Shown piece after piece: positions 13,336 through 51,108 of a stretch of DNA of 64,000 bases. The notes beneath the pieces are model-generated. The model was not told the DNA's origin, made no database searches, and worked only from the letters and a program-made list of their open reading frames with translations. Source of the stretch: a virus; IMG/VR virus record IMGVR_UViG_3300035190_000190, positions 1 through 64,000 of that record; one strand, written 5' to 3'. Position 1 is the first letter of the stretch, and every line of letters begins with the position of its first letter. A program made the position numbers and the translations under genes.

Positions 13336-13739
13336 TGATACAAGAAGAACGTGAACAAATAGAACGTATTAAGTTTAATGGAATACGTACAACTTATATT
13401 AAAGTTAGAACTGAATTTGAAGGGTTTCATTACTACCCTAACGCAGGTACTATTGATTCGCGTATCAAATTTCTTGAGAATGAACATCGACATATATTCA
13501 AAGTTGAGGTGAAAATATCAGTTACGCACCTCGACCGTGAATTAGAATTTTTCTTAGTTAAATGGGCTTTACAAGAATTTATTAAAGCAGGCAATCAAAA
13601 TCACAAATCGTGTGAGATGATTGCTGTTAACATTTTAGAAAATCATTTAATACCATTGTATGGTAATAGATCTTATACTGTAGTAGTATCCGAGGATGGG
13701 GAATCAGATGGTATTATTGAATTTGTTCCACAGCTTTAA
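13335..13739 (+). CDS. small conserved phage protein, weakly T-fold-like
   Basis: 134 aa from the ATG at 13335 (TAATG overlap); an ATG at 13299 lies inside the previous gene and is less likely. The segment FEGFHYYPN ... EHRHIFKVEVKISV ... DRELEFF loosely resembles the H-x-H and strand pattern of 6-pyruvoyl-tetrahydropterin synthase/QueD-like T-folds, but the zinc histidine triad is incomplete, so I do not call it QueD. The 3' end overlaps the antisense HNH gene by 26 bases. Confidence 0.65.
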   Translation: MIQEEREQIERIKFNGIRTTYIKVRTEFEGFHYYPNAGTIDSRIKFLENEHRHIFKVEVKISVTHLDRELEFFLVKWALQEFIKAGNQNHKSCEMIAVNILENHLIPLYGNRSYTVVVSEDGESDGIIEFVPQL

Positions 13740-14451
13740 TTAGTTCTTCTAAAGTTATTGAACAACTTATACGTTTAGATCTATTATCAAACTTAGGTAG
13801 TAATTCTAAATTAGCATAATGCCCTATAATTTCTGGAGAAATATTTTGTTTAAACCCTTCAGTAATGCTAAATTTATGATCTAATTCAAAGTTAGCACCT
13901 CGTTCTAAATTTTGAGGATTAATTTTATTTTGATAGTGTGTCCAACTCTTATAAGTATGATTAAGGACTTGTTCTCTATACAATTCCCACTCAGTTTTTA
14001 GTTCCTTGGAAATAGCAATACCATTTTTAATTTTTGTATATGTTGCTTCGATGTAGCAAGAAGGATTTCGTTTAATGGCCTTAGCTGATTGTTTTTGTTT
14101 AGTCTCATTACTATGAGTCTTATTATACATAGGATTATTTTCGCCGGAATGCCCGCCTCTAGTAGCAATTGCTTTCGAAATTTTATTACCCTTTGTAGCA
14201 AGCCAACTACGATCGTTATGTCGTTCTTTAAGAACAGCATTTCCCCTCTCGCTCATCAGTTTTATATGAGCACGTCGTTGTTCTGGAGTAATTTTACTAT
14301 CTCTAGATGCTTGTGCTTTTTTAATAAAACCAGGGCATTGAGTAATTTTCTCAACACATCTCATTTTTTTGGAATTATAACTTATGTAAAAGGCTTGACA
14401 TCCGCACAAATAACACGTATTATTAACATTAACATTAGTAAGTTTAGGCAT
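13714..14451 (-). CDS. HNH homing endonuclease with NUMOD3-type DNA-binding motif
   Basis: 245 aa, the only clear minus-strand gene in the first 46 kb. An N-terminal zinc-ribbon-like CYLCGCQ and a later cysteine pair come first, then a GENNPMYNKTHSNETKQK segment typical of NUMOD3 repeats in phage homing nucleases. The C-terminal FELDHKFSITEGF and YANLELLPKFDNRSK match an HNH-type nuclease fold. It overlaps the convergent gene by 26 bases and sits at a gene boundary, as expected of a free-standing mobile endonuclease. Cleavage site unknown; likely inserted between 13739 and 14512. Confidence 0.82.
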   Translation of the reverse strand: MPKLTNVNVNNTCYLCGCQAFYISYNSKKMRCVEKITQCPGFIKKAQASRDSKITPEQRRAHIKLMSERGNAVLKERHNDRSWLATKGNKISKAIATRGGHSGENNPMYNKTHSNETKQKQSAKAIKRNPSCYIEATYTKIKNGIAISKELKTEWELYREQVLNHTYKSWTHYQNKINPQNLERGANFELDHKFSITEGFKQNISPEIIGHYANLELLPKFDNRSKRISCSITLEELIKAVEQIQ

Positions 14452-14511: not shown

Positions 14512-14742
14512 GTGGCAAATCCAGTTTGGCTTAAAAAGTATCTTACTATGAAGCCCGAAGTAAGACAAATCTACAACGATTTAGATGCATGGTGCAACTA
14601 CTGTCGTTTCCACATGATCAAGTATGATGAGGCTGATTTATATGTTAGCCCAGCTTACAAAGAATGGCAGGAAAAACGCAAACGTCGCGAACAATGGCGC
14701 CAACAACAAGGGCAAACGCAGGGTTATCAAGGACGTAGATAG
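14512..14742 (+). CDS. small conserved phage protein, 76 aa
   Basis: GTG start with AAGGAGA about 7 bases upstream. The N-terminal half (NPVWLKKYLTMKPEVRQIYNDL) and DLYVSPAYKEW resemble small proteins of T4-like marine phages that I recall only as hypothetical. The C-terminus is basic and Q/R-rich, suggesting nucleic-acid contact. No known domain. Confidence 0.7.
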   Translation: MANPVWLKKYLTMKPEVRQIYNDLDAWCNYCRFHMIKYDEADLYVSPAYKEWQEKRKRREQWRQQQGQTQGYQGRR

Positions 14743-14743
14743 C

Positions 14744-15337
14744 ATGACTGCTTACAGCAAGTCGAATATATCGATCATTGGTGAACAAGGCGATCTCGCT
14801 AAGGCATTATATAATAAGTTGATATTAGAACACCATGTAATCTGTTATGGAAAAAATCAGTATGATTTTCTCAATAAAGATAATATTTCTACGTTAGTTG
14901 ATAGTATCCATCAAAGTGATATTATAATTAGCTGTCCTGGAGTTTTTGCTTCTGCTGACAGCTGGGAGACGTTTACTATAAATGCTCTTGCGCCAATTTA
15001 TCTATTAGAAAAATTAGTAGAAAAACAATCCAAAGCTCATGTTATAATTGTGGGTAGTCATGGTGCTATGTGGACTAGTTGGCCAGGAATCTCAATGGGA
15101 AAATTGGCTTATAATGTCAGTAAAGAAACTATACAATCTTTTACTACAGGACTAAGCCAGTCTAATTTATCTGATCTGAAATTATCTGTGTTTAATCCTA
15201 GCGTATTCCAAAGTAAAATAAATGGATATCAAGGTCATCCTATCGATATTATCGTAGATGGTATTATACATGTTATACAAGCTCCCGCTCCACTATTAAT
15301 CTACGAATATAATAATTATCAAAATGCTAGTCGATAA
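14744..15337 (+). CDS. short-chain dehydrogenase/reductase-like protein
   Basis: 197 aa from the ATG at 14744, just after the previous stop; the longer reading at 14624 overlaps that gene. The fold is SDR-like: IIGEQGDLAKAL replaces the usual TGxxxGxG loop, followed by IISCPGVF, an IIVGSHGA strand carrying the serine position, and YNVSKE (YxxxK catalytic pair). The cofactor loop is divergent, so activity is uncertain. It opens the 14.7-22 kb sugar-type cluster and overlaps the next radical SAM gene. Confidence 0.7.
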   Translation: MTAYSKSNISIIGEQGDLAKALYNKLILEHHVICYGKNQYDFLNKDNISTLVDSIHQSDIIISCPGVFASADSWETFTINALAPIYLLEKLVEKQSKAHVIIVGSHGAMWTSWPGISMGKLAYNVSKETIQSFTTGLSQSNLSDLKLSVFNPSVFQSKINGYQGHPIDIIVDGIIHVIQAPAPLLIYEYNNYQNASR

Positions 15338-16430
15338 AATATCTCAAATTGAATTAGAATTAACTACTAAATGCAATGCTCGTTGTCCGCAGTGTATACG
15401 TAATTATTATGGGTCATATACGTGGCCTAGTTTACCTATTGTTGATTTAGATATTAATACACTTAAACAATCTATTAATTCTGAAATTTGGGAAAACTTA
15501 GATCATCTGAGATTATGTGGCACTTACGGTGATCCATGTATGCATAAAGATCTTATTAAAATAGTAAAATGGATTAAAACCGTAAGCCCTGCAGCTATTA
15601 CTATCAACTCCAATGGTGGAATTAGAAACCCTAAGTGGTGGGGAGAACTTGCTGGTATACTAGATAGCGACAAAGACACAGTGGTTTTTGGATTAGACGG
15701 ATTAGCCGATACCAATCATCTCCATCGAATTGGCGTAAATTATAATAAAGTTATAGAAAATCTTAAAGCATTCAACCAAGCCGGGGGTAAATCAGTTTGG
15801 CAATTTTTGGTATTCGAACATAACGAACATCAAGTTGATATTGCTAGAGAATTTGCACTTAGTATCGGGTGCGCAGAATTTTCTTATAAATTAACCAGCA
15901 GATTTGTGGATAAAACCCATAAATTAATAGATAAAAGTCCTGTGATGAATAATCAAGGCGAACCTATTTATTTTTTAAAGCCTGCTAAAAATTCTAAATA
16001 TAAAAATCAAGGATATGATACCTTTGAAGAAACAACTAAACTATTTGATGGTTATGACAATTATTTAAAAACAACTACCATTGATTGTTTTGCAAAAAGA
16101 ATGCAATATATAGCTATCACTGCCGAAGGTTATGTTTTTCCTTGTGCTTGGCTGGCTGATAGACTATATGGATACGAAACAGAAAAACATAAAGATCACG
16201 AAACCATTTTAAAAATGATTGATAGTATAGGCGGTAAGGAAAAAATTAATTTAAAATATACAGATCTTAATAGTATTATTTCAGGGCCTTGGTTTGAGCT
16301 AGTAGAAAATAGTTGGAAAACCAATGAGTTAGAAAGATGTGCGCATATATGTGGCAGTAGAAGTGGGCTGATACAGGCCGCCAGCGAAGGCCAATTTAAA
16401 AGTTTAATTGATCCTAAGGTAAAAAAATGA
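15324..16430 (+). CDS. radical SAM/SPASM protein
   Basis: 368 aa. CNARCPQC at residues 17-24 supplies the radical SAM cluster. Late in the protein CFAKRMQYIAITAEGYVFPCAW and CAHICGS form a C-terminal SPASM-like auxiliary cluster region, the usual domain order, unlike the N-terminal-cluster group at 8.4 and 53.8-60.8 kb. SPASM enzymes modify peptides or sugars. Embedded among SDR, glycosyltransferase and aminotransferase genes, a sugar or small-molecule substrate is plausible. Confidence 0.85.
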   Translation: MLVDKISQIELELTTKCNARCPQCIRNYYGSYTWPSLPIVDLDINTLKQSINSEIWENLDHLRLCGTYGDPCMHKDLIKIVKWIKTVSPAAITINSNGGIRNPKWWGELAGILDSDKDTVVFGLDGLADTNHLHRIGVNYNKVIENLKAFNQAGGKSVWQFLVFEHNEHQVDIAREFALSIGCAEFSYKLTSRFVDKTHKLIDKSPVMNNQGEPIYFLKPAKNSKYKNQGYDTFEETTKLFDGYDNYLKTTTIDCFAKRMQYIAITAEGYVFPCAWLADRLYGYETEKHKDHETILKMIDSIGGKEKINLKYTDLNSIISGPWFELVENSWKTNELERCAHICGSRSGLIQAASEGQFKSLIDPKVKK

Positions 16431-17524
16431 CGATATTTTTAGTAGATCTAGAAGCAGTAGAAACTAGGTACACAGGGCAATGGAAGACTCATGTACCTAC
16501 GTTGCTCGAGGAACATGGGCACGAAGTTTATGTTGTTGCAGGACCTCATGATATTCCAGCGGCTACTACTCCCGGTGCTTTCCTTAACTTTGGCGGTACT
16601 AATATCTATAAAGCCAATCAAGTTGAACAAATAGCAAGACTATTCACAGAAGGTAGGATTGTCAAAGGGGATCATTTTATCTTTACTGATGCTTGGCACC
16701 CTGGCATCATTAATCTTAAGTATATGAGTGAGCTACTGGGTATTCCTGTAACTATACATGCTCTATGGCACGCTGGTAGCTATGACCCACAGGACTTTTT
16801 AGGTCGTCTTATTGGTGATGCCCCGTGGGTACGTCACGCAGAAAAGAGTTTCTTTCATGCTATCGACTATAACTACTTTGCCACTGACTTTCATATTGAG
16901 ATGTTCTTTACTAATCTATTAAATGATTATCCTACTGAAAATCCTTGGTTTGATGAAGACCTAGCAGAACTACGTGCAGGTACACTTACAGATAAGATTG
17001 TACGCAGTGGATGGCCTATGGAATATATGCCAGAAACTATTACACCTTATAAGACTGCTAAACGTGACTTAATCTTATTTCCGCATCGTATAGCACCAGA
17101 GAAGCAAGTTGAGATATTTAAAGAACTTGCGGCTGCACTACCACAGTATGAATGGATTGTATGTCAAGAGCAGAACTTGACAAAAGCAGGCTATCATACT
17201 TTACTAGGTGAAGCTAAGATGGTATTCAGTGCTAACCTACAGGAAACATTAGGTATTAGTATGTATGAAGGTGCCTTAACTGATGCTATTCCTATGGTTC
17301 CGGATAGATTGTCATACAGTGAAATGTATGCTGAGATTTGGAAGTATCCTAGTGAGTGGACTGAGTCATATAGCAGTTTCTTACATCATAAATCAGAACT
17401 ATGCAATAAGATTGTGGAGTTTATGACTGACTATGATGAATATGCTAAACTTGTTCCACAACAAGCACATAGTCTACATCATGATTTCTTTTCAGCAACT
17501 AAACTATTAGCTAATATCAAATAA
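16427..17524 (+). CDS. GT-B type glycosyltransferase (marine phage family)
   Basis: 365 aa, ATGA overlap with the preceding gene. The arrangement fits a GT-B fold: an N-terminal Rossmann-like part (MTIFLVDLEAVETRYTGQW) with GDHFIFTDAWHPG, then a C-terminal domain with FPHRIAPEKQ and QETLGISMYEGAL, the latter equivalent to the ExxGxxxxEA nucleotide-sugar motif of GT4-type enzymes. From memory, close relatives are widespread in T4-like marine phages. Acceptor could be DNA, a virion protein or host glycan; nothing in the sequence decides this. Confidence 0.8.
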   Translation: MTIFLVDLEAVETRYTGQWKTHVPTLLEEHGHEVYVVAGPHDIPAATTPGAFLNFGGTNIYKANQVEQIARLFTEGRIVKGDHFIFTDAWHPGIINLKYMSELLGIPVTIHALWHAGSYDPQDFLGRLIGDAPWVRHAEKSFFHAIDYNYFATDFHIEMFFTNLLNDYPTENPWFDEDLAELRAGTLTDKIVRSGWPMEYMPETITPYKTAKRDLILFPHRIAPEKQVEIFKELAAALPQYEWIVCQEQNLTKAGYHTLLGEAKMVFSANLQETLGISMYEGALTDAIPMVPDRLSYSEMYAEIWKYPSEWTESYSSFLHHKSELCNKIVEFMTDYDEYAKLVPQQAHSLHHDFFSATKLLANIK

Positions 17525-18111
17525 TGAATGCCTTTGATCCAATATACCAGTTTGAACAAGCATTAGGTGCGCTTACGGGTGCACCTTTTGTCGTTATGAC
17601 AGATTCGTGTACACATGCACTAGAACTGTGTCTACGTTACGACAAGGTAAAACGGTGTCGTTTTACGGCATTTACCTACCTTTCTGTGCCAATGACCATG
17701 CATAAATTAGACATTTCGTATGGTTTAGTGCCTGATAATGAATGGGTCGGAGAATATCCCATACTTGGTACACGGATATGGGATAGTGCGAGATTGCTAC
17801 GTACAGGTATGTATCGTAGTGGGCAAATGCAGTGCTTGAGCTTTGGTCACAGCAAGCCATTGGATATTGGTCGTGGTGGTGCTATCTTGCTAGACGATGA
17901 AGTTGCCTACAACAAACTTATACAGCAACGTGGCGACGGCAGAGACTTAAAGATAACACCATGGGAATCACAAAAGGTATTTGAAGTTGGCTATCATTAT
18001 CGTCCAACCATAGAAGAAGCAGTACAAGCATTAGAAAAATTACCGTTGGTTAATCAAGAATCTAAATACGTTGTGTATCCAGATCTTAGAGAGATAATTA
18101 TAAAGGATTAA
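17524..18111 (+). CDS. truncated DegT/DnrJ/EryC1-like (PLP aminotransferase fold) protein
   Basis: 195 aa, about half the usual 370 aa. It keeps the N-terminal TDSCTHALELCLR cofactor-phosphate motif and SFGHSKPLDIGRGGAILLDD, whose lysine aligns with the PLP-binding lysine, but the middle is condensed and the C-terminal domain is nearly gone. It starts exactly at the previous stop and has intact reading frame, so it looks like an evolved short form, not decay. Activity as an aminotransferase is doubtful. A full-length paralogue lies at 45119-46210. Confidence 0.7.
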   Translation: MNAFDPIYQFEQALGALTGAPFVVMTDSCTHALELCLRYDKVKRCRFTAFTYLSVPMTMHKLDISYGLVPDNEWVGEYPILGTRIWDSARLLRTGMYRSGQMQCLSFGHSKPLDIGRGGAILLDDEVAYNKLIQQRGDGRDLKITPWESQKVFEVGYHYRPTIEEAVQALEKLPLVNQESKYVVYPDLREIIIKD

Positions 18112-18112
18112 T

Positions 18113-19033
18113 ATGAAAGTTTTTATCACAGGAGCTAGTGGATTCATTGGCTCCCATTTTGTTAAAGTATTAGAAAATAACCATATGGTGCATTCGATGC
18201 AGTCGGACTTATTGGAATTTTCAAAAGTTAGACAAGAATTATTCGACTTTGACCCCGATGTGATTGTACACTTTGGTGCGAGAACCGAAGTCGAGCGTAG
18301 TTTTTACGAACAAGTTACTTTTAGTCAGGTTAATTATGTCGGTACTGTAAATTTAATCGAAAGTGCCGCTAAACTTAAAAATCTAAAAAATTTCGTATTC
18401 GCTAGTACAATGGAAGTGTACGGCTGGCAGCCAGTGAGTGATATAATTAAAGAGAAGGGATATCTCAAAGATATTCCGATATTTGACGAAAATACTATCC
18501 CAAATCCCAATGCTCCGTATGCTGTTGCCAAATATGCTTGCGAAAAATATTTAGAATATGCTCACAGAAGCTTAGGTCTTCCATTTTGTGCTATTAGACA
18601 AACCAATACATACGGTCGTAAGAAGAATGATTTTTTTGTTGTAGAACAGATTATTACACAAATGATGAAAAATCCTAATATTATTAACTTAGGATACGAT
18701 ACTCCATATAGAAATTTCTTATATATCGATGATTTACTAAATTTATGGTCTACTATCATTGAAAATCCAGATAAAGTAAGCAATGGTTATATTTTTACTA
18801 TAGGACCAAATAATCCCATTCAGATTAAAGAATTAGCAAATGTTATTGCTAAGAAATTAGATTGGCATGGCGAAATAAAGTGGAATTCAAAACCTGCTAG
18901 GCCTGGAGAAATTTATCTATTAAACAGTGGCCACGAATTGGTTACCAAAATAACTGGATGGAAGCCGACTGTAGATTTAAATAACGGGTTAGATAGAACC
19001 ATTGATCATTGGAAAATAGAGTTAAGCAAATAA
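18113..19033 (+). CDS. NAD-dependent epimerase/dehydratase (extended SDR)
   Basis: 306 aa. TGASGFIGSH at residues 6-15 is the NAD-binding motif; ASTMEVYGW carries the catalytic threonine/serine strand, and PYAVAKYACE supplies the YxxxK pair. Length and the DDLLNLW and GEI segments fit nucleotide-sugar epimerases or 4,6-dehydratases. It follows the short DegT-like gene by 1 base and precedes the B12-type radical SAM gene with no gap, so these genes are one transcription unit. Confidence 0.88.
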   Translation: MKVFITGASGFIGSHFVKVLENNHMVHSMQSDLLEFSKVRQELFDFDPDVIVHFGARTEVERSFYEQVTFSQVNYVGTVNLIESAAKLKNLKNFVFASTMEVYGWQPVSDIIKEKGYLKDIPIFDENTIPNPNAPYAVAKYACEKYLEYAHRSLGLPFCAIRQTNTYGRKKNDFFVVEQIITQMMKNPNIINLGYDTPYRNFLYIDDLLNLWSTIIENPDKVSNGYIFTIGPNNPIQIKELANVIAKKLDWHGEIKWNSKPARPGEIYLLNSGHELVTKITGWKPTVDLNNGLDRTIDHWKIELSK

Positions 19034-20815
19034 ATGCATAATGTCTATCTATTCCAGCCACAATATGCTGTAGAATTTCGAGAAGAAAAAAATTATTGGT
19101 TACCATATAGTGCTGGGTGCTTATGGAGTTATGCTAGCCAATTTACTGATATAAGAGAAAATTTTATTCTTCGAGAATTATTCTTTAAAAGACAGCCTAT
19201 CGACGAAATATTAGATAGGATCGATAATCCGAAAGTTTGTGGATTTAGTTGTTATTTGTGGAACGAACGGTATAGTCTAACATTAGCTAAAGCGATAAAA
19301 TTGCGATGGCCGGAATGTATAATTGTATTTGGTGGCGCTCAGGTCAGTGGCCGTATGCTTAAATATGAATTTATCGATTCACTGGTTATGGCAGAAGGTG
19401 AAGAAGCATTTACTAAAATTTTACAAGATATAATTGCTAAAAATCCCATAGATAAGCTAACGTCACGAGCACGGCTTCAAGATCTTAATATACCAAGTCC
19501 GTATGTCACTGGTGTGTTTGATCAATTAATTATAGATAACCCTAATACTATATGGGCAATGACATTAGAAACTAATCGAGGGTGTCCGTATGCTTGTACA
19601 TTTTGTGATTGGGGAGGTACCACTTATAGTAAAGTTAAGAAGTTCGATCTCGACAAGGTTGCGGCAGAACTAGACTGGGCAGTTAATCATCGAGTGGCTT
19701 ATATTTTTAGTGCTGATGCTAATTTTGGTATATTTAAAGAACGAGATGTTGAAATTGCTAAATTGATACGGACAGCGGCTGATAATTCAATTATCGAAAC
19801 TGTTAATTTACAATTTGCAAAGAATAGTACAGAAATTGTTTTCGAAATTGCTAAAATCATGGGGCCATATAATCGAGGTATTACAGTTAGTGTGCAGAGT
19901 ATGAATGACCTTACTTTAGAAACAATTAAACGTAAAAATCTTGAAATAAACAATATTAAATATCTATTAGAACTTAGCAAAAAGTATGACCTTAGTACTT
20001 ACACCGAAGTTATATTGGGATTACCTCACGAAACAAAAGAATCATGGATAAATGGATTATCCCAACTGTTAGAATTGGGACAACACCAAAGCATTGATAT
20101 CTGGTTTACACAATTACTCGAGAATTCAGAACTTGCCACAGAACAAAGTAGAAGAGAGTACGGTATTAAATCTATATTAGTTAAAGATTATATGAACTTA
20201 GACCAAACCGAAGATAGTATACCCGAATATACTGAAATTGTGTGCGAAACTAATACAATGTCTACTGAGGAAATGATTGATTGTTATATGTATACCTGGA
20301 TGATCATACATTTTCATATTGCCGGGTATACACAAATTATAGCCAAATATGCCAGAAATCTTGAAAATATATCATTCAAAATATTTTACGACCAATTATT
20401 TACAGAAATACAATATAATAAATCGCTCGGCGAACATTACCAATCGTTACGAAATACTGTTACTGATTATCTAACTACAGGTACCCTAACAGGAAAACTA
20501 GCCGGCGGCCATGCATTGCATGCAGTTTCGTATAAGTTTATGTACGAAAATAGATGCACCGTAGCTAACCTTGCTGTAACTGCATTAAAAAAATTAATAC
20601 CGATTGTACCATCAGATCTACTGTTACTGCAAGATTTGTTTATTATAGATATAACTACACAATATCCCCAAACCTTACAAACCAATTATAACATCGACAC
20701 TGGCAGTAAGATGATAACTACCTATGTAATAACTCAACGAATTAAAGAACAAATAGAAGATTTTTATACTATACGGAGAAAAGGGTTAATAAAAAACCTA
20801 TTATTAATATTATGA
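19034..20815 (+). CDS. B12-binding-domain-type radical SAM protein
   Basis: 593 aa. Residues 1-150 form a Rossmann-like cobalamin-binding-type domain (KVCGFSCYLWNERYSLTLA, IVFGGAQVSG, MAEGEEAF). The DxHxxG cobalamin-ligand motif is not seen, so B12 may bind without histidine or not at all. The radical SAM core has CPYACTFC (Cys184, 188, 191) and TEVILGLPHET. The C-terminal 200 residues are a helical extension. Neighbours encode an epimerase and an oxygenase fused to an LIC12192-like domain, suggesting carbohydrate or small-molecule chemistry. Confidence 0.85.
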   Translation: MHNVYLFQPQYAVEFREEKNYWLPYSAGCLWSYASQFTDIRENFILRELFFKRQPIDEILDRIDNPKVCGFSCYLWNERYSLTLAKAIKLRWPECIIVFGGAQVSGRMLKYEFIDSLVMAEGEEAFTKILQDIIAKNPIDKLTSRARLQDLNIPSPYVTGVFDQLIIDNPNTIWAMTLETNRGCPYACTFCDWGGTTYSKVKKFDLDKVAAELDWAVNHRVAYIFSADANFGIFKERDVEIAKLIRTAADNSIIETVNLQFAKNSTEIVFEIAKIMGPYNRGITVSVQSMNDLTLETIKRKNLEINNIKYLLELSKKYDLSTYTEVILGLPHETKESWINGLSQLLELGQHQSIDIWFTQLLENSELATEQSRREYGIKSILVKDYMNLDQTEDSIPEYTEIVCETNTMSTEEMIDCYMYTWMIIHFHIAGYTQIIAKYARNLENISFKIFYDQLFTEIQYNKSLGEHYQSLRNTVTDYLTTGTLTGKLAGGHALHAVSYKFMYENRCTVANLAVTALKKLIPIVPSDLLLLQDLFIIDITTQYPQTLQTNYNIDTGSKMITTYVITQRIKEQIEDFYTIRRKGLIKNLLLIL

Positions 20816-21951
20816 CATTAGACCACACACAAACAATTTTTGATAATCAAACCTTAAATTATGACTTAGAAAAATATCCATTACCTGCTATAGTATTAGA
20901 AACTATTCAACAATTTTATCCAGATGCAACAACACTGGACACATTGCACGAAGTGGTGCCGGCAAATAAAATACAACAATTAATGGTTGACACCACACAG
21001 GCTTTACTTAAGAATAAATTTTATGATTACTATGATACTATGATTCAAGATCAGATAGTATCAACGCTAGGCAAGGAAGTATTAATTCAAAAGTTTGGTA
21101 ATCTTAGAATCCTACCACCAAATCAAGACCAAATTGGAGCAGTATTGCTATTTCATCAAGGTCGGTGGGTGGGTAATGGGTTGGGTTTACGCACAATTTG
21201 GATGCCATTCACTGATTGCTATGAAAGTAATAGCATGCAAATGTTAGATTTAGACATTAGTAGAAAAATTACTAGAGAATCTGTTATAGAGAAATGGAGT
21301 TATGAAAAATTACAACAAGTCTGTGTAGATAACTGTTGGCCGGTTACATTACAGCCAGGGCAGGCACACTTGTTTTTACAAGAACATATACACGGTAATA
21401 TCCCCAATAGGACTAATAAAACTAGAGTTAGTATCGATATAAGATTGTTAATAAAAGATGAGCAACCTCATCGTAAATGGCCAGGGGCATATTTCCGCAA
21501 ATTATTCGATCGAGACTATTCCAAAACTATCCCAATCTTAGCACATGAAAAAGTATTAAATTATTGTGAATACGAAGGCGTTAAAACTAAACATATTGAT
21601 CTATATTTTCAAACATTAGTAGTCAAATCCTATTGCCAAAAACGTGGATATACTTATCCGTATCAACATGGAGACAACGAAGGATTAAACTATGCGCATC
21701 TTGAGTATTTGATATCTAGCAAGAGTGCAGATCATTTATTATTGTTTAGTATTTTTAGTTTGCCAGATGATGCTGCACATCGTATAAGATTACTGACTAC
21801 TGCATTAGATCTCGGTGTACGAATACATCTGTGCAATGAAGAAATGGTATTAGAATCTTATGAAGATCTTGAAAAAATAGAATATATTCGAAACTTTACA
21901 AATGATTGGTCGACTCCAGTCGAACAGCTTAGTAAAGAATTGAATAATTAA
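20812..21951 (+). CDS. 2OG-Fe(II) oxygenase fused to an LIC12192-like sporadic-carbohydrate-cluster domain
   Basis: 379 aa, ATGA overlap with the radical SAM gene. Residues about 100-235 look like a 2-oxoglutarate/Fe(II) oxygenase, with the cupin-like strand FLQEHIHGNIPNRT followed by TRVSIDIRL (candidate His and Arg for iron and 2OG). Residues about 255-375 (TLVVKSYCQKRGYTYPY, DHLLLFSIFSLPDDAAHRIRLL, a late NEEMVLES segment) match my memory of the sporadic carbohydrate cluster protein family named for Leptospira LIC12192. These are usually separate neighbouring genes; here they are one polypeptide. Reaction unknown. Confidence 0.72.
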   Translation: MTLDHTQTIFDNQTLNYDLEKYPLPAIVLETIQQFYPDATTLDTLHEVVPANKIQQLMVDTTQALLKNKFYDYYDTMIQDQIVSTLGKEVLIQKFGNLRILPPNQDQIGAVLLFHQGRWVGNGLGLRTIWMPFTDCYESNSMQMLDLDISRKITRESVIEKWSYEKLQQVCVDNCWPVTLQPGQAHLFLQEHIHGNIPNRTNKTRVSIDIRLLIKDEQPHRKWPGAYFRKLFDRDYSKTIPILAHEKVLNYCEYEGVKTKHIDLYFQTLVVKSYCQKRGYTYPYQHGDNEGLNYAHLEYLISSKSADHLLLFSIFSLPDDAAHRIRLLTTALDLGVRIHLCNEEMVLESYEDLEKIEYIRNFTNDWSTPVEQLSKELNN

Positions 21952-43865: not shown

Positions 43866-44139
43866 GAAACCCGAAACCCATCGTGTAAGATTCTTTACCA
43901 GCACATTCACTGATGATGTTGACACACAAATGTCTGACAGATTTTGGCGGATTGCTGAAGAATTTAAATTAACTCCACAGGCCCAATGGGTTAAAGATAA
44001 TGATATTACTCTAGCGTGGGCGGAAGACGACATATACTATTCATTTGGTAAGATGTGTATTATATACGGTGACTTAACTGAAAGACAATATGTAGATTAT
44101 AGTTTACGATTCTTTCAACACCAATCGGATTGGAAATGA
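43819..44139 (+). CDS. conserved phage hypothetical protein, 106 aa
   Basis: The start is uncertain: ATG 43819 overlaps thyA by 47 bases, and ATG 43825 is equally usable. HRVRFFTSTFTDDVDTQMSDRFW and AEDDIYYSFGKMCIIYGDLTERQY are patterned. It overlaps the epimerase by 4 bases. Function unknown. Confidence 0.6.
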   Translation: MAMNHSQALKHQWQSKKPETHRVRFFTSTFTDDVDTQMSDRFWRIAEEFKLTPQAQWVKDNDITLAWAEDDIYYSFGKMCIIYGDLTERQYVDYSLRFFQHQSDWK

Positions 44140-45122
44140 AAATCCTAATCACAGGCGGTGCAGGGTTTATTGGACACAATGTAACTCGTATATTAGAATC
44201 ACAAGGTCACGAATGTTATGTCATTGACACCGCAACAGACTATGGCTTTATACCAAAAAAGGAATTAACTTATCTCAAATCTTCGCGTAAAGAACGTTTT
44301 AAATCACGTGTTATACATACTGATATATGCAGCGTTAATCATATCGACAGTATTTTTAGCGCAGTACGTCCAGAGCTAGTAATACATCTCGCTAGCTTTC
44401 CTAGACAAAAAATAGTCAGTCAGGATCCAATACTTGGGTCAGAAGTAATGACCACTGGATTGATTAATCTTCTGGAAGCCAGCACACGTTATAACATCAA
44501 TAAGTTTGTCTACATTAGTTCAAGTATGGTCTACGGTGACTTCAATAATGAATCGTTTGATGGTATCGGTGAATATGTTGACTGTAATCCAATCGGGCAG
44601 TATGGCATTATGAAATACATGGGCGAGAAACTTGTAGCTGATTATACTCGACGCGGTTGCTTTGCGCATACTATTATTCGTCCTAGTGCTGTATACGGAC
44701 CTTGGGATGTCGAGGATAGAGTTGTTAGTAAGTTTATGCTGGCGGCCCTACGTGGAGAAGTATTAAAAGTTAAGGGTGCTAACGAAGTCTTAGACTTTAC
44801 CTATGTTGAAGATACTGCCATGGGTATTGCACAGGCCGCACTCAGTGATAATGCCAACAATAAAATTTACAATATAACACGTTCGTCGGATGTAGAATAT
44901 ACACTGCTGGATGCTGCTCGTCTTGCTGTTGATATTGCAGGTCGAGGTAGTATAGAAATTGCAGATCGAGACTTGGCATTTCCCACACGTGGTAGATTAA
45001 ACATTGCTAGTGCAAGAGCGGACTTTGGATATAATCCCACAGTTGATGTAGAGAATGGATTTGCTCTTTACAGTAGATGGTTTACTACATCACCTTATTG
45101 GACCAAACAACTCGCAAAATGA
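44136..45122 (+). CDS. NAD-dependent sugar epimerase/dehydratase
   Basis: 328 aa from the ATG at 44136 (ATGA overlap). TGGAGFIGHNV binds NAD; YISSSMVYGD gives the serine strand and QYGIMKYMGEKL the YxxxK pair. The C-terminal VEDTAMGI and PTRGRLNIASARADFGY regions match nucleotide-sugar 4-epimerases or 4,6-dehydratases. It is coupled to a full-length aminotransferase, the usual pair for making amino-sugar nucleotides. Confidence 0.9.
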   Translation: MKILITGGAGFIGHNVTRILESQGHECYVIDTATDYGFIPKKELTYLKSSRKERFKSRVIHTDICSVNHIDSIFSAVRPELVIHLASFPRQKIVSQDPILGSEVMTTGLINLLEASTRYNINKFVYISSSMVYGDFNNESFDGIGEYVDCNPIGQYGIMKYMGEKLVADYTRRGCFAHTIIRPSAVYGPWDVEDRVVSKFMLAALRGEVLKVKGANEVLDFTYVEDTAMGIAQAALSDNANNKIYNITRSSDVEYTLLDAARLAVDIAGRGSIEIADRDLAFPTRGRLNIASARADFGYNPTVDVENGFALYSRWFTTSPYWTKQLAK

Positions 45123-46210
45123 TTCCATTCTTTGGTGTAGACCGTCAATACAAAACAATCCGTGAAGAAATACTCGATGTAACAGATCTTGTCTATTCGA
45201 GCGGACAGGTATTAGATGGTGAATATACTAGAACCTTTGAACAAACTCTTGCTAAAATGACAGAACGTAAGTATGCTGTTGCTGTTAATAGTTGTACACA
45301 GGCTTTGGTCTTTGCACTGCGAGCAATTGACTTTTATTCCTTATTCCATAAAAACAAAGTATTAATTCCCAGTCAAAGTTTTGCCGCCACAGTTAATGTT
45401 GTGTTCGAAGCTGGCTATGAACCTGTATTCTGCGATGTTGATCCTATCTCGGGATTAATCGATCTCGACAGTATACCAGTTAAGCCAGATGAAGTTGCGG
45501 CTGTTATGTATGTAAACTTGTTTGGTAATATTATTGACTATGATAAGTTACAAACGTATGTTACATTCTTTAATAGTCATCGCATACCTGTAATCGAAGA
45601 TGCCGCACAATCGTTTGGTGCTTACTATCGCGGAGTACCTAGTGGCAAGTTAGGTGATATTAGTTGTTTAAGTTTTGATCCTACTAAGAATTTTCCCAAC
45701 TACGGATCTGGCGGAATGATACTCACAGACGACTACGAGCTAGCCGAGCTGTGCATTAATATGCGTGACAACGGCAAGGTGTCGGAGCATTACACAGTTG
45801 GCACCAACAGTAAGATGAGTGAAGTTGATTGTGCGCAGATGTTAGTTAAACTAAGACACTTCGATGATTGGCAACAACGTCGTAGGAATATTGCAGAATA
45901 TTATACGGAAGAACTAGATGGCCCTGTGCAGATGATTCCCGTGTATCATAATGTCGAACATGCATGGCATAAGTTTGTTATACACTATCCAGAACGTTCG
46001 CGTTTATTTTCAGATTTACACTATATGGGTATAGAAACTAAGATACATTATACAGCACCATTGCACATGATGGGTGTTGTCGGTGGACACGAAGTTCTAG
46101 TAGGTGCTGAACAGTTCAGTAAAACGTGTTTAAGTTTGCCTATCTATCCAGAGATGACTGATGCAGAAGTCGAAGCAGTTGTTGATGCTATTAAAGAGTG
46201 TACTTGGTAG
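45119..46210 (+). CDS. DegT/DnrJ/EryC1/StrS-family PLP aminotransferase
   Basis: 363 aa from the ATG at 45119 (ATGA overlap), full length. FFGVDRQY at the start, SGQVLDGEYTRTFEQTLA, AVNSCTQALVFALRA, EDAAQSFGAYY and SFDPTKNFPNYGSGG (PLP lysine) are the family motifs. Such enzymes transfer an amino group to a keto-sugar nucleotide, fitting the adjacent epimerase/dehydratase. The last gene of the plus-strand half; its end overlaps the minus-strand 872-aa gene by 20 bases. Confidence 0.93.
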   Translation: MIPFFGVDRQYKTIREEILDVTDLVYSSGQVLDGEYTRTFEQTLAKMTERKYAVAVNSCTQALVFALRAIDFYSLFHKNKVLIPSQSFAATVNVVFEAGYEPVFCDVDPISGLIDLDSIPVKPDEVAAVMYVNLFGNIIDYDKLQTYVTFFNSHRIPVIEDAAQSFGAYYRGVPSGKLGDISCLSFDPTKNFPNYGSGGMILTDDYELAELCINMRDNGKVSEHYTVGTNSKMSEVDCAQMLVKLRHFDDWQQRRRNIAEYYTEELDGPVQMIPVYHNVEHAWHKFVIHYPERSRLFSDLHYMGIETKIHYTAPLHMMGVVGGHEVLVGAEQFSKTCLSLPIYPEMTDAEVEAVVDAIKECTW

Positions 46211-49224: not shown

Positions 49225-49615
49225 TTATTTCCTTGGCAATGATAGCTGCCCAACGTTCGGCATCTTGTTCTGTTACCCGTACATCGTAATGCTCTGGTGG
49301 TTCGAACACCTTATTTGTATCTTCAAATCTACCTAGTTTAATTGTATCTATCCATACAACATAGTCGGCATCAAAGATATCACGTATCTCTTTAGTAGGA
49401 GCAACAAAGTCACATATAACGTGACCGTTGCTGTCATCGGCTAACTTTTTCATACGTGTTGCTTGGCGTAGTCTACCTTCTTTGGAAAAGTCCCAATCAT
49501 TGTATTTGCTTCTAACTGCATCGGCATTGTACCATATACAATCTATCAATGTTGATAGTGCGTGTGCAAGTGTAGTTTTGCCCGAGCCTGGTAGACCACA
49601 AATTAATATTCTCAT
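49214..49615 (-). CDS. adenylylsulfate kinase-like P-loop kinase
   Basis: 133 aa. Walker A GLPGSGKTT at residues 7-15; WYNADAVRSKYNDWDFS EGRLRQATRM (shown with a break) and VICDFVAPTKEIR correspond to the D-x-x-R and FxxP/R regions of APS kinase, and VWIDTIKLGRFEDTNKVFEPP resembles the lid and end of phage CysC-like proteins (break after GRFEDTN). Shorter than bacterial CysC (about 200 aa). It would phosphorylate APS to PAPS or a related nucleotide. It may supply the sulfotransferase-like protein at 867. Confidence 0.75.
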   Translation of the reverse strand: MRILICGLPGSGKTTLAHALSTLIDCIWYNADAVRSKYNDWDFSKEGRLRQATRMKKLADDSNGHVICDFVAPTKEIRDIFDADYVVWIDTIKLGRFEDTNKVFEPPEHYDVRVTEQDAERWAAIIAKEINEA

Positions 49616-51108
49616 GATAAAACTTTAACTCCGTATAGCTGTTCAAATCGATCTGCGTCAGCTCGATCATTTACCATCGGTTCGCCACGTATGTTTAAAC
49701 TTGTATTAAGTAACATCGGACACCCTGTCCATGTATACCATAAGCACAATAGTTCACGTATACCACTACCATCACGTGGAACAGTCTGTACACGACTTGT
49801 ACCATCTATATGTATTATAGCAGGAAATTCATCAGGACGCAAGCACTTTGCAGTGGTCTGCATGTATCTGCTTGTGGCAAATCCGTTGGGCATTTCGAAA
49901 TACTCATCGACAAATTCTTCAAGTATAATAGGAGCAAAGGGTCTAAACTGCTGACGACGTTTGATTTCATTTACCTTATCTTTAATATCAGGTCCACGTG
50001 GATCTGCCAGCAAACTTCTATTACCCAATGCCCGTGGGCCAAACTCTGCGCGGCCGTTGGCAACGCCAACAATCTTGTTGGTCATTAGCTCGGATACAAT
50101 ATCGGTGCAAGGATAAGGGCCACTAATATCATGGCCAAGAAAAGCATTATTCCAATTAAGTCGACCCCCGTGTGCCAATGCCGCCGCTCCAAGACTGCTA
50201 CCAGCATCACCAGGATTAGGCATAATCCATACGTTATCAAAGTATTCTCCCAAATCTCTATTAGCACTACAATTAAGCGCGACTCCGCCTGAATAGACTA
50301 GATTACTATTGGGTGCTAGCTTCATTGCCTTATACATTATATTATGTATTAAGTTTTCTGCTAATGTCTGCGCTGCATTAGCAATTTCAAATTCAGTCCA
50401 CTTAGCTTGCATATCATTATCGGGCAGGCCAACATGTAGATTGTGTTTTAATGTTAGATTAAACTCATGATCAACTAGCCAAGTCGACAGTTGATCACTC
50501 AGACGTGTGGTATTTTGTTTTGCCCAGCCTGCCATGCCCATCAAGATGTATTCTTCATCTAGGGGTTTAAGTCCAACTTCTTTAGTAAATGCACTGTACA
50601 TCAAACCGATGCTGTGTGGATATAGTTGTCGCCATACTCGGGTGTATTCAGCACGGCCATTAACATACTCGGCTTTCCATATACTAATAGTATCCCATTC
50701 ACCAATGGCATCGATTACCACAACTGTTGCGCTGTCAAACGGGCTAGTTTGAAAGCCAGCCGCTGCATGACTTAAATGATGATTGTATGTATTAATAGGA
50801 AGATGATGTATCGGAGCGTCCGGTACCATCTTTTCAAGCATACCGCGTACTGTCCACGGCGTGGTTAATTCACTATATTGACCAGCGTAAAGTTGACGTG
50901 TCTTTTTAATCCAAGGTCTTTCATAGTAGGCAATTTGGTCAGGCAAGCCATATGTTAGTGCATCTGATATCAAAGCATTGTTTAAATTTTGATCGTGTTT
51001 AATCTTACTGTAACGTTCAGCATGACCCGCAAAGACAATGTCATCGCCTTTGATTAATGTAACTGCTGCGTCATGAAACCCAGCACTAATTCCGAGAATA
51101 TTTTTCAT
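49612..51108 (-). CDS. carbamoyltransferase (NodU/TobZ/HypF-C type)
   Basis: 498 aa. GISAGFHDAAVTLI opens the ASKHA-fold N-terminal domain; NHHLSHAAAGF supplies the metal-binding histidines; SGGVALNC and GRAEFGPRALGNRSLLADPR (split as GRAEFGPRAL, GNRSLLADPR) mark the carbamoyl-adenylate site; FAPI follows. Enzymes of this type put a carbamoyl group on sugar or antibiotic hydroxyls using carbamoyl phosphate and ATP. Relatives occur in marine T4-like phages, from memory. Target unknown. Confidence 0.9.
   Translation of the reverse strand: MKNILGISAGFHDAAVTLIKGDDIVFAGHAERYSKIKHDQNLNNALISDALTYGLPDQIAYYERPWIKKTRQLYAGQYSELTTPWTVRGMLEKMVPDAPIHHLPINTYNHHLSHAAAGFQTSPFDSATVVVIDAIGEWDTISIWKAEYVNGRAEYTRVWRQLYPHSIGLMYSAFTKEVGLKPLDEEYILMGMAGWAKQNTTRLSDQLSTWLVDHEFNLTLKHNLHVGLPDNDMQAKWTEFEIANAAQTLAENLIHNIMYKAMKLAPNSNLVYSGGVALNCSANRDLGEYFDNVWIMPNPGDAGSSLGAAALAHGGRLNWNNAFLGHDISGPYPCTDIVSELMTNKIVGVANGRAEFGPRALGNRSLLADPRGPDIKDKVNEIKRRQQFRPFAPIILEEFVDEYFEMPNGFATSRYMQTTAKCLRPDEFPAIIHIDGTSRVQTVPRDGSGIRELLCLWYTWTGCPMLLNTSLNIRGEPMVNDRADADRFEQLYGVKVLS

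Follow-up and report, generated by a model that had tools for sequence, protein, structure and literature searches.

The window analysed here (a 64,000-nucleotide stretch of DNA from a virus whose DNA polymerase has its nearest cultured relatives, at 45-51% identity, among rhizobial jumbo phages) contains a compact run of same-strand genes (14624-21951), in which consecutive genes overlap or lie 1-2 nt apart. The run starts with a short-chain dehydrogenase-like (SDR-like) protein (14624-15337; phrog_3142, E=5.2e-6), followed by a radical SAM protein in the first half of the coupled cassette (15324-16430; PF04055, E=8.6e-10; phrog_21308) and a glycosyltransferase-like gene (16427-17524), which matches PF13439 weakly (at E=0.2 only) and is conserved in close position in the related contig L004. 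Next come a DegT/DnrJ/EryC1-type aminotransferase (17524-18111; PF01041, E=1.4e-10), a nucleotide-sugar epimerase/dehydratase of the SDR type (18113-19033; PF01370, E=8.4e-40; phrog_540) and a B12-binding radical SAM protein (19034-20815; PF04055 and PF02310), whose KedN5-family match (E=3e-54) is far under the cut-off of that family. The last gene (20812-21951, plus strand as all of the above) has an ATG start that overlaps the stop codon of the gene before it (ATGA, 20812-20815) and encodes a protein of 379 aa, the subject of this analysis.

A few minor features of the run were recorded. The aminotransferase, at 195 aa, is about half the usual length, and similarly short homologues occupy the same place in L004 (950-1528, 192 aa) and L006 (4163-4765, 200 aa). 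Both of these contigs have a small 2OG-oxygenase-like gene (L004 1525-2031, L006 4819-5331) between the aminotransferase and the SDR; it is absent from the window, where the aminotransferase ends at 18111 and the SDR starts directly at 18113. Just before the cassette, an opposite-strand ORF (13714-14451, minus strand) has by eye the look of a homing (HNH-type) endonuclease.

The earlier note had read the last gene of the run as a one-chain fusion of an oxygenase-like and an LIC12192-like part, and this reading was borne out by profile comparisons. In the NCBIfam hmmscan, residues 38-232 (20923-21507) matched TIGR04324, the SpoChoClust_2 2OG-Fe oxygenase family, with 99.8 bits (E=1.7e-28; curated cut-off 150 bits), and residues 249-359 (21556-21888) matched TIGR04323, the SpoChoClust_1 or LIC12192 family, with 49.9 bits (E=2.7e-13; curated cut-off 55 bits). 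Both scores are thus below the curated cut-offs; that of TIGR04323 is passed by two bacterial fusions, L062 (55.9 bits) and L063 (61.5 bits). Profile-profile alignment (hhalign) with separate bacterial members backed each half, giving E=6.1e-13 for the N part and E=1.7e-16 over 102 columns for the C part. The LIC12192-type segment had been placed at residues 255-375, and a TIGR04323 match was indeed found there; within the full virus record of 75,122 bases, the profile search located this family in a single place, 21556-21888 (E=2.3e-15). The protein had no match in Pfam and no usable match in PHROGs, and a search of the open literature under the TIGR04323 and TIGR04324 family names found nothing, including no paper on the LIC12192 family. 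An assembly artefact was ruled out by the recurrence of the fusion in many independent contigs (39-100% identity to the window protein in viral contigs, 29-37% in bacterial genomes). Two sporadic-carbohydrate-cluster families are here fused in one chain.

TIGR04324 and TIGR04323 are partners outside the fusion as well. In Alphaproteobacteria, as had been proposed for the bacterial homologues, each has its own gene; the two genes follow one another in the domain order of the fusion, with TIGR04323 as a separate protein of ~130 aa just after the stand-alone oxygenase rather than as a C-terminal domain. At 27 of the 28 separate-TIGR04323 loci a TIGR04324 gene lies directly upstream, with measured intergenic gaps of -8 to +32 nt. 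Among 398 Pseudomonadota genomes, TIGR04323 was found in seven, six of them with an over-cut-off TIGR04324 and one with a fusion (five of the six pair genomes are near-identical, so that the sample holds about three independent cases); among 367 alphaproteobacterial genomes, an over-cut-off TIGR04323 was found in 25, separate in 24 and fused in one. One bacterial pair is flanked by an SDR, a PseC-like aminotransferase and a methyltransferase, which is a sugar-island setting. The functional link proposed between the families is supported by this strict co-occurrence and, since the fusion keeps the bacterial gene order, a shared function is well supported. The fusion is in effect a Rosetta-stone case, in which two families of sugar islands, both uncharacterised, are linked to a single function.

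The fusion is not specific to phages. IMG/VR was scanned twice with the C-domain only, yielding 159 loci, and all 143 of those with enough upstream sequence to be assessed were fused, with no stand-alone case. On the other hand, four fusion loci turned up when 84,980 genomes of bacteria and archaea were scanned. One is in Roseivirga, on a 957 kb contig, where it adjoins polysaccharide export and GDP-mannose dehydratase genes; the second is within an exopolysaccharide locus of a gammaproteobacterium, and the third is in a Hyphomicrobiales MAG. The fourth (L060), on a 13 kb contig of a 'Candidatus Pelagibacter' MAG, probably represents virus DNA that was binned with a bacterium, because the IMG/VR contig L114 encodes the same protein at 100% identity. 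With the Roseivirga, gammaproteobacterial and Hyphomicrobiales loci at hand, a phage-only distribution was rejected, and the fusion cannot simply be called an invention of phages. No match to the fusion protein was found by tblastn in INPHARED phages or PLSDB plasmids.

What is new, along with the predicted recombinase fold of the partner domain described below, is a strict link, in all sequences whose motif could be read, between the fusion and loss of the iron-binding carboxylate. The first iron histidine of the window protein, His115, is followed by glutamine and glycine (H115-Q-G117, 21154-21162), the glycine replacing the aspartate ligand, while the distal iron histidine and the 2OG-binding arginine and serine, assigned these roles by family homology, lie in the segment H194-G ... 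R205-x-S207 (21391-21432). All 27 separate TIGR04324 homologues examined have H-x-D (HAD, HSD, HTD or HCD; 26 by pattern, and H-T-D of L366 read directly). In contrast, 17 of 17 diverse fusions, viral and bacterial, have H-Q-G or H-T-G in the ligand column, and all of another 80 viral fusions had HQG. The latter were found partly via an HQG-containing pattern, so that the C-domain-only set provides the unbiased test: H-x-G was found at 143 of 143 loci (140 HQG and one HKG by pattern, one HQG and one HKG by eye), and an artefact of pattern bias was rejected. The hhalign alignment sets FHQG opposite THSD with no gap; against PtlH (1-deoxypentalenic acid 11-beta hydroxylase), HMMER instead places a gap of one residue at the aspartate, and the carboxylate is absent under either alignment. 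The only invariant Asp or Glu of the N-domain in fusions is D209, which was rejected as a replacement ligand on the grounds that PtlH has both HQD and the same Asp. In the tree the separate homologues lie on branches so long that neither the root nor the number of HxG origins could be placed.

His194, Arg205 and Ser207 are invariant in both fusions and separate homologues, and together with His115 they persist in fusions whose identity to the window protein ranges from 29 to 100%. The product is very probably an Fe(II)/2-oxoglutarate enzyme of a two-histidine type that lacks the carboxylate. The earlier assignment of the N part to the 2OG-Fe(II) oxygenases stands as to family, by the TIGR04324 match, but not as to an ordinary type, since the aspartate ligand is a glycine in fusions. 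An oxygenase of ordinary chemistry acting on a carbohydrate, with the fusion as mere operon streamlining, would agree with the domain order, which is that of bacterial genes that often overlap, and with the SDR and aminotransferase genes nearby; it would leave the fused subfamily without a carboxylate that all separate relatives examined have kept, and we regard it as very improbable. A scarcely better prospect is that the Asp-to-Gly change ended catalysis and left a protein whose remaining task is ligand binding or pathway scaffolding. Enzymes of this kind are often inactivated when a metal ligand is lost, as in prolyl 4-hydroxylase, where the D414G variant had neither halogenase nor hydroxylase activity (PMC2767507), but the four invariant residues need not persist in a dead enzyme. 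The split between H-x-D in separate and H-x-G in fused proteins predicts a changed chemistry.

In the AlphaFold model (34 sequences; pLDDT 93.7, pTM 0.89) the N-domain has the double-stranded beta-helix fold of the Fe/2OG halogenase group, and the best five PDB matches of the model in Foldseek are all of the CurA halogenase (E=2.6e-9 to 6e-9), with SyrB2 at ranks 18, 26, 28 and 31; the TM-scores of the PDB matches are low (0.3-0.4). The fold search does not discriminate, however, as the hydroxylases ThoJ, PtlH and GriE score within 1-2 orders of magnitude of CurA, and the hydroxylase EctD and the 2OG epimerase SnoN are also close fold neighbours. In the sequence-profile comparison PtlH comes out as the top PDB match (E=0.0014); it has HQD where the fusion has HQG, and the following match, to the halogenase CytC3, is not significant (E=0.23).

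In the Fe(II)/2OG halogenases (CurA Hal, SyrB2, CytC3, WelO5, BesD, AdaV and DAH) the carboxylate ligand is likewise missing, and within the SyrB2, CurA, WelO5, AdaV and DAH groups HxG/A accompanies halogenation. AspH, an HxG two-histidine 2OG enzyme like the fusion, sits on another branch of the superfamily. The missing carboxylate gives a halide room at the iron (PMC11186838, PMC2767507); the HxG/A motif has been used for mining halogenases (PMC11186838), and DAH, a halogenase of plants, arose with a D-to-G change (PMC12346261). In the window protein, His115 and His194 would hold the iron and Arg205 and Ser207 the 2OG, and chloride or bromide would fill the place of the missing aspartate. 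Reaction of O2 with 2OG would then produce an Fe(IV)-oxo species abstracting a hydrogen from the substrate, and the substrate radical would take up the halide, which is the chemistry of halogenases. By analogy with these enzymes, halide rebound is a plausible but tentative proposal for the fusion, which has in addition a recombinase-fold domain and a sugar-cassette context; it is a candidate halogenase only.

A hydroxylase of the AspH kind (or a desaturase or epimerase), with water in the place of the aspartate and a product that is oxidised rather than halogenated, is a serious possibility, only slightly less likely than halogenation. Human AspH is a natural HxG two-histidine hydroxylase, and the Asp-to-Gly variant of FIH retains some activity (PMC10947486). 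The hydroxylases and the epimerase among the fold neighbours, as well as the HxD type of the separate homologues, which presumably hydroxylate, are in line with this alternative. The position of AspH in another branch argues against it, as does the company of HxG/A and halogenation in the groups named above (a pattern documented in part by PMC11186838 and PMC12346261) and the fact that the fused subfamily shows the Asp-to-Gly change without exception. A phage 'halogenase' described previously (PMC10611076) is an unrelated homologue of tryptophan-7-halogenase.

The C-terminal domain, when modelled alone (pLDDT 84.7), has a serine-recombinase-like alpha/beta fold. The best 20 PDB matches of the model are all catalytic domains of serine recombinases, among them the TP901-1 integrase (E=3.7e-5), and this recombinase-like fold provides a first structural lead for the LIC12192 family. 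The invariant residues of the domain are Gln267, Tyr274, Cys275, Ser313, His339, Asn342 and Glu343 (Q22, Y29, C30, S68, H94, N97 and E98 in domain numbering); its alignment has no conserved serine near the first strand or before the first helix and no conserved set of arginines. Unlike serine recombinases, the fusion also has no DNA-binding domain. A working recombinase was rejected on the absence of conserved catalytic Ser and Arg residues, and the domain is likely a recombinase fold turned to other use. We infer a role in substrate binding, in which the domain might bind or present the substrate to the iron site.

As to the nature of this substrate, the earlier note had proposed that both families act on one carbohydrate, which fits the cassette of the window but extends less well to the relatives. 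In related viruses, the gene most often found next to the fusion is that of an SDR nucleotide-sugar epimerase/dehydratase, located directly upstream on the same strand in 40 of 80 clade-2 contigs (many of the others being truncated) and in the group of the window itself. A B12 radical SAM gene is near the fusion in a minority of relatives (13 of 46 clade-1 and 5 of 80 clade-2 contigs). In the freshwater phage contigs L034 (7317-13091) and L025 (7413-13100), the fusion has no adjoining sugar genes and stands just before a gene that, as read from the sequence, encodes a tail-fibre-like protein of ~1,900 aa. In L118 (4023-9950), where gene names were assigned in the same way, aminotransferase-like and amidinotransferase-like genes precede the fusion and more 2OG-oxygenase-like genes follow it; this cassette resembles one for small-molecule biosynthesis.

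Such neighbourhoods would suit a virion protein (a fibre of the tail, for example) or a small molecule derived from an amino acid as the substrate, an alternative compatible with any of the chemistries above. It is set against the SDR genes upstream of so many fusions and the polysaccharide loci in which the bacterial relatives sit, and we hold it to be a real but minority prospect. For the family at large, with its non-uniform context, action on a carbohydrate is a possibility; for the window protein a sugar-type substrate is somewhat more likely than not, and most likely a sugar or nucleotide sugar from the cassette at 14624-20815 with its SDR, aminotransferase, radical SAM and B12 radical SAM genes.

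Overall, these data are best explained if the fusion works as an Fe/2OG enzyme with two histidine ligands, and possibly as a halogenase, on a sugar-type compound that the neighbouring cassette produces; to this explanation as a whole we assign a probability of about 40%. A broader proposal is a widespread family of so far unrecognised halogenases, encoded by viruses and bacteria alike, which would add chlorine or bromine to a sugar or nucleotide sugar on its way to surface or virion glycans and would each be fused to a recombinase-fold domain for substrate handling; it is speculative and, on present evidence, unlikely. A search of the halogenated-sugar literature found no natural surface halosugar. 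If halide is used, many aquatic viruses would carry, in the fusion, an unusual source of halogenated glycans.

Elsewhere in the window there is a second set of sugar-modification genes, comprising a NodU-like carbamoyltransferase (49612-51108, minus strand; phrog_1601), a full-length DegT aminotransferase (45077-46210) and a second SDR-like gene (44130-45122).
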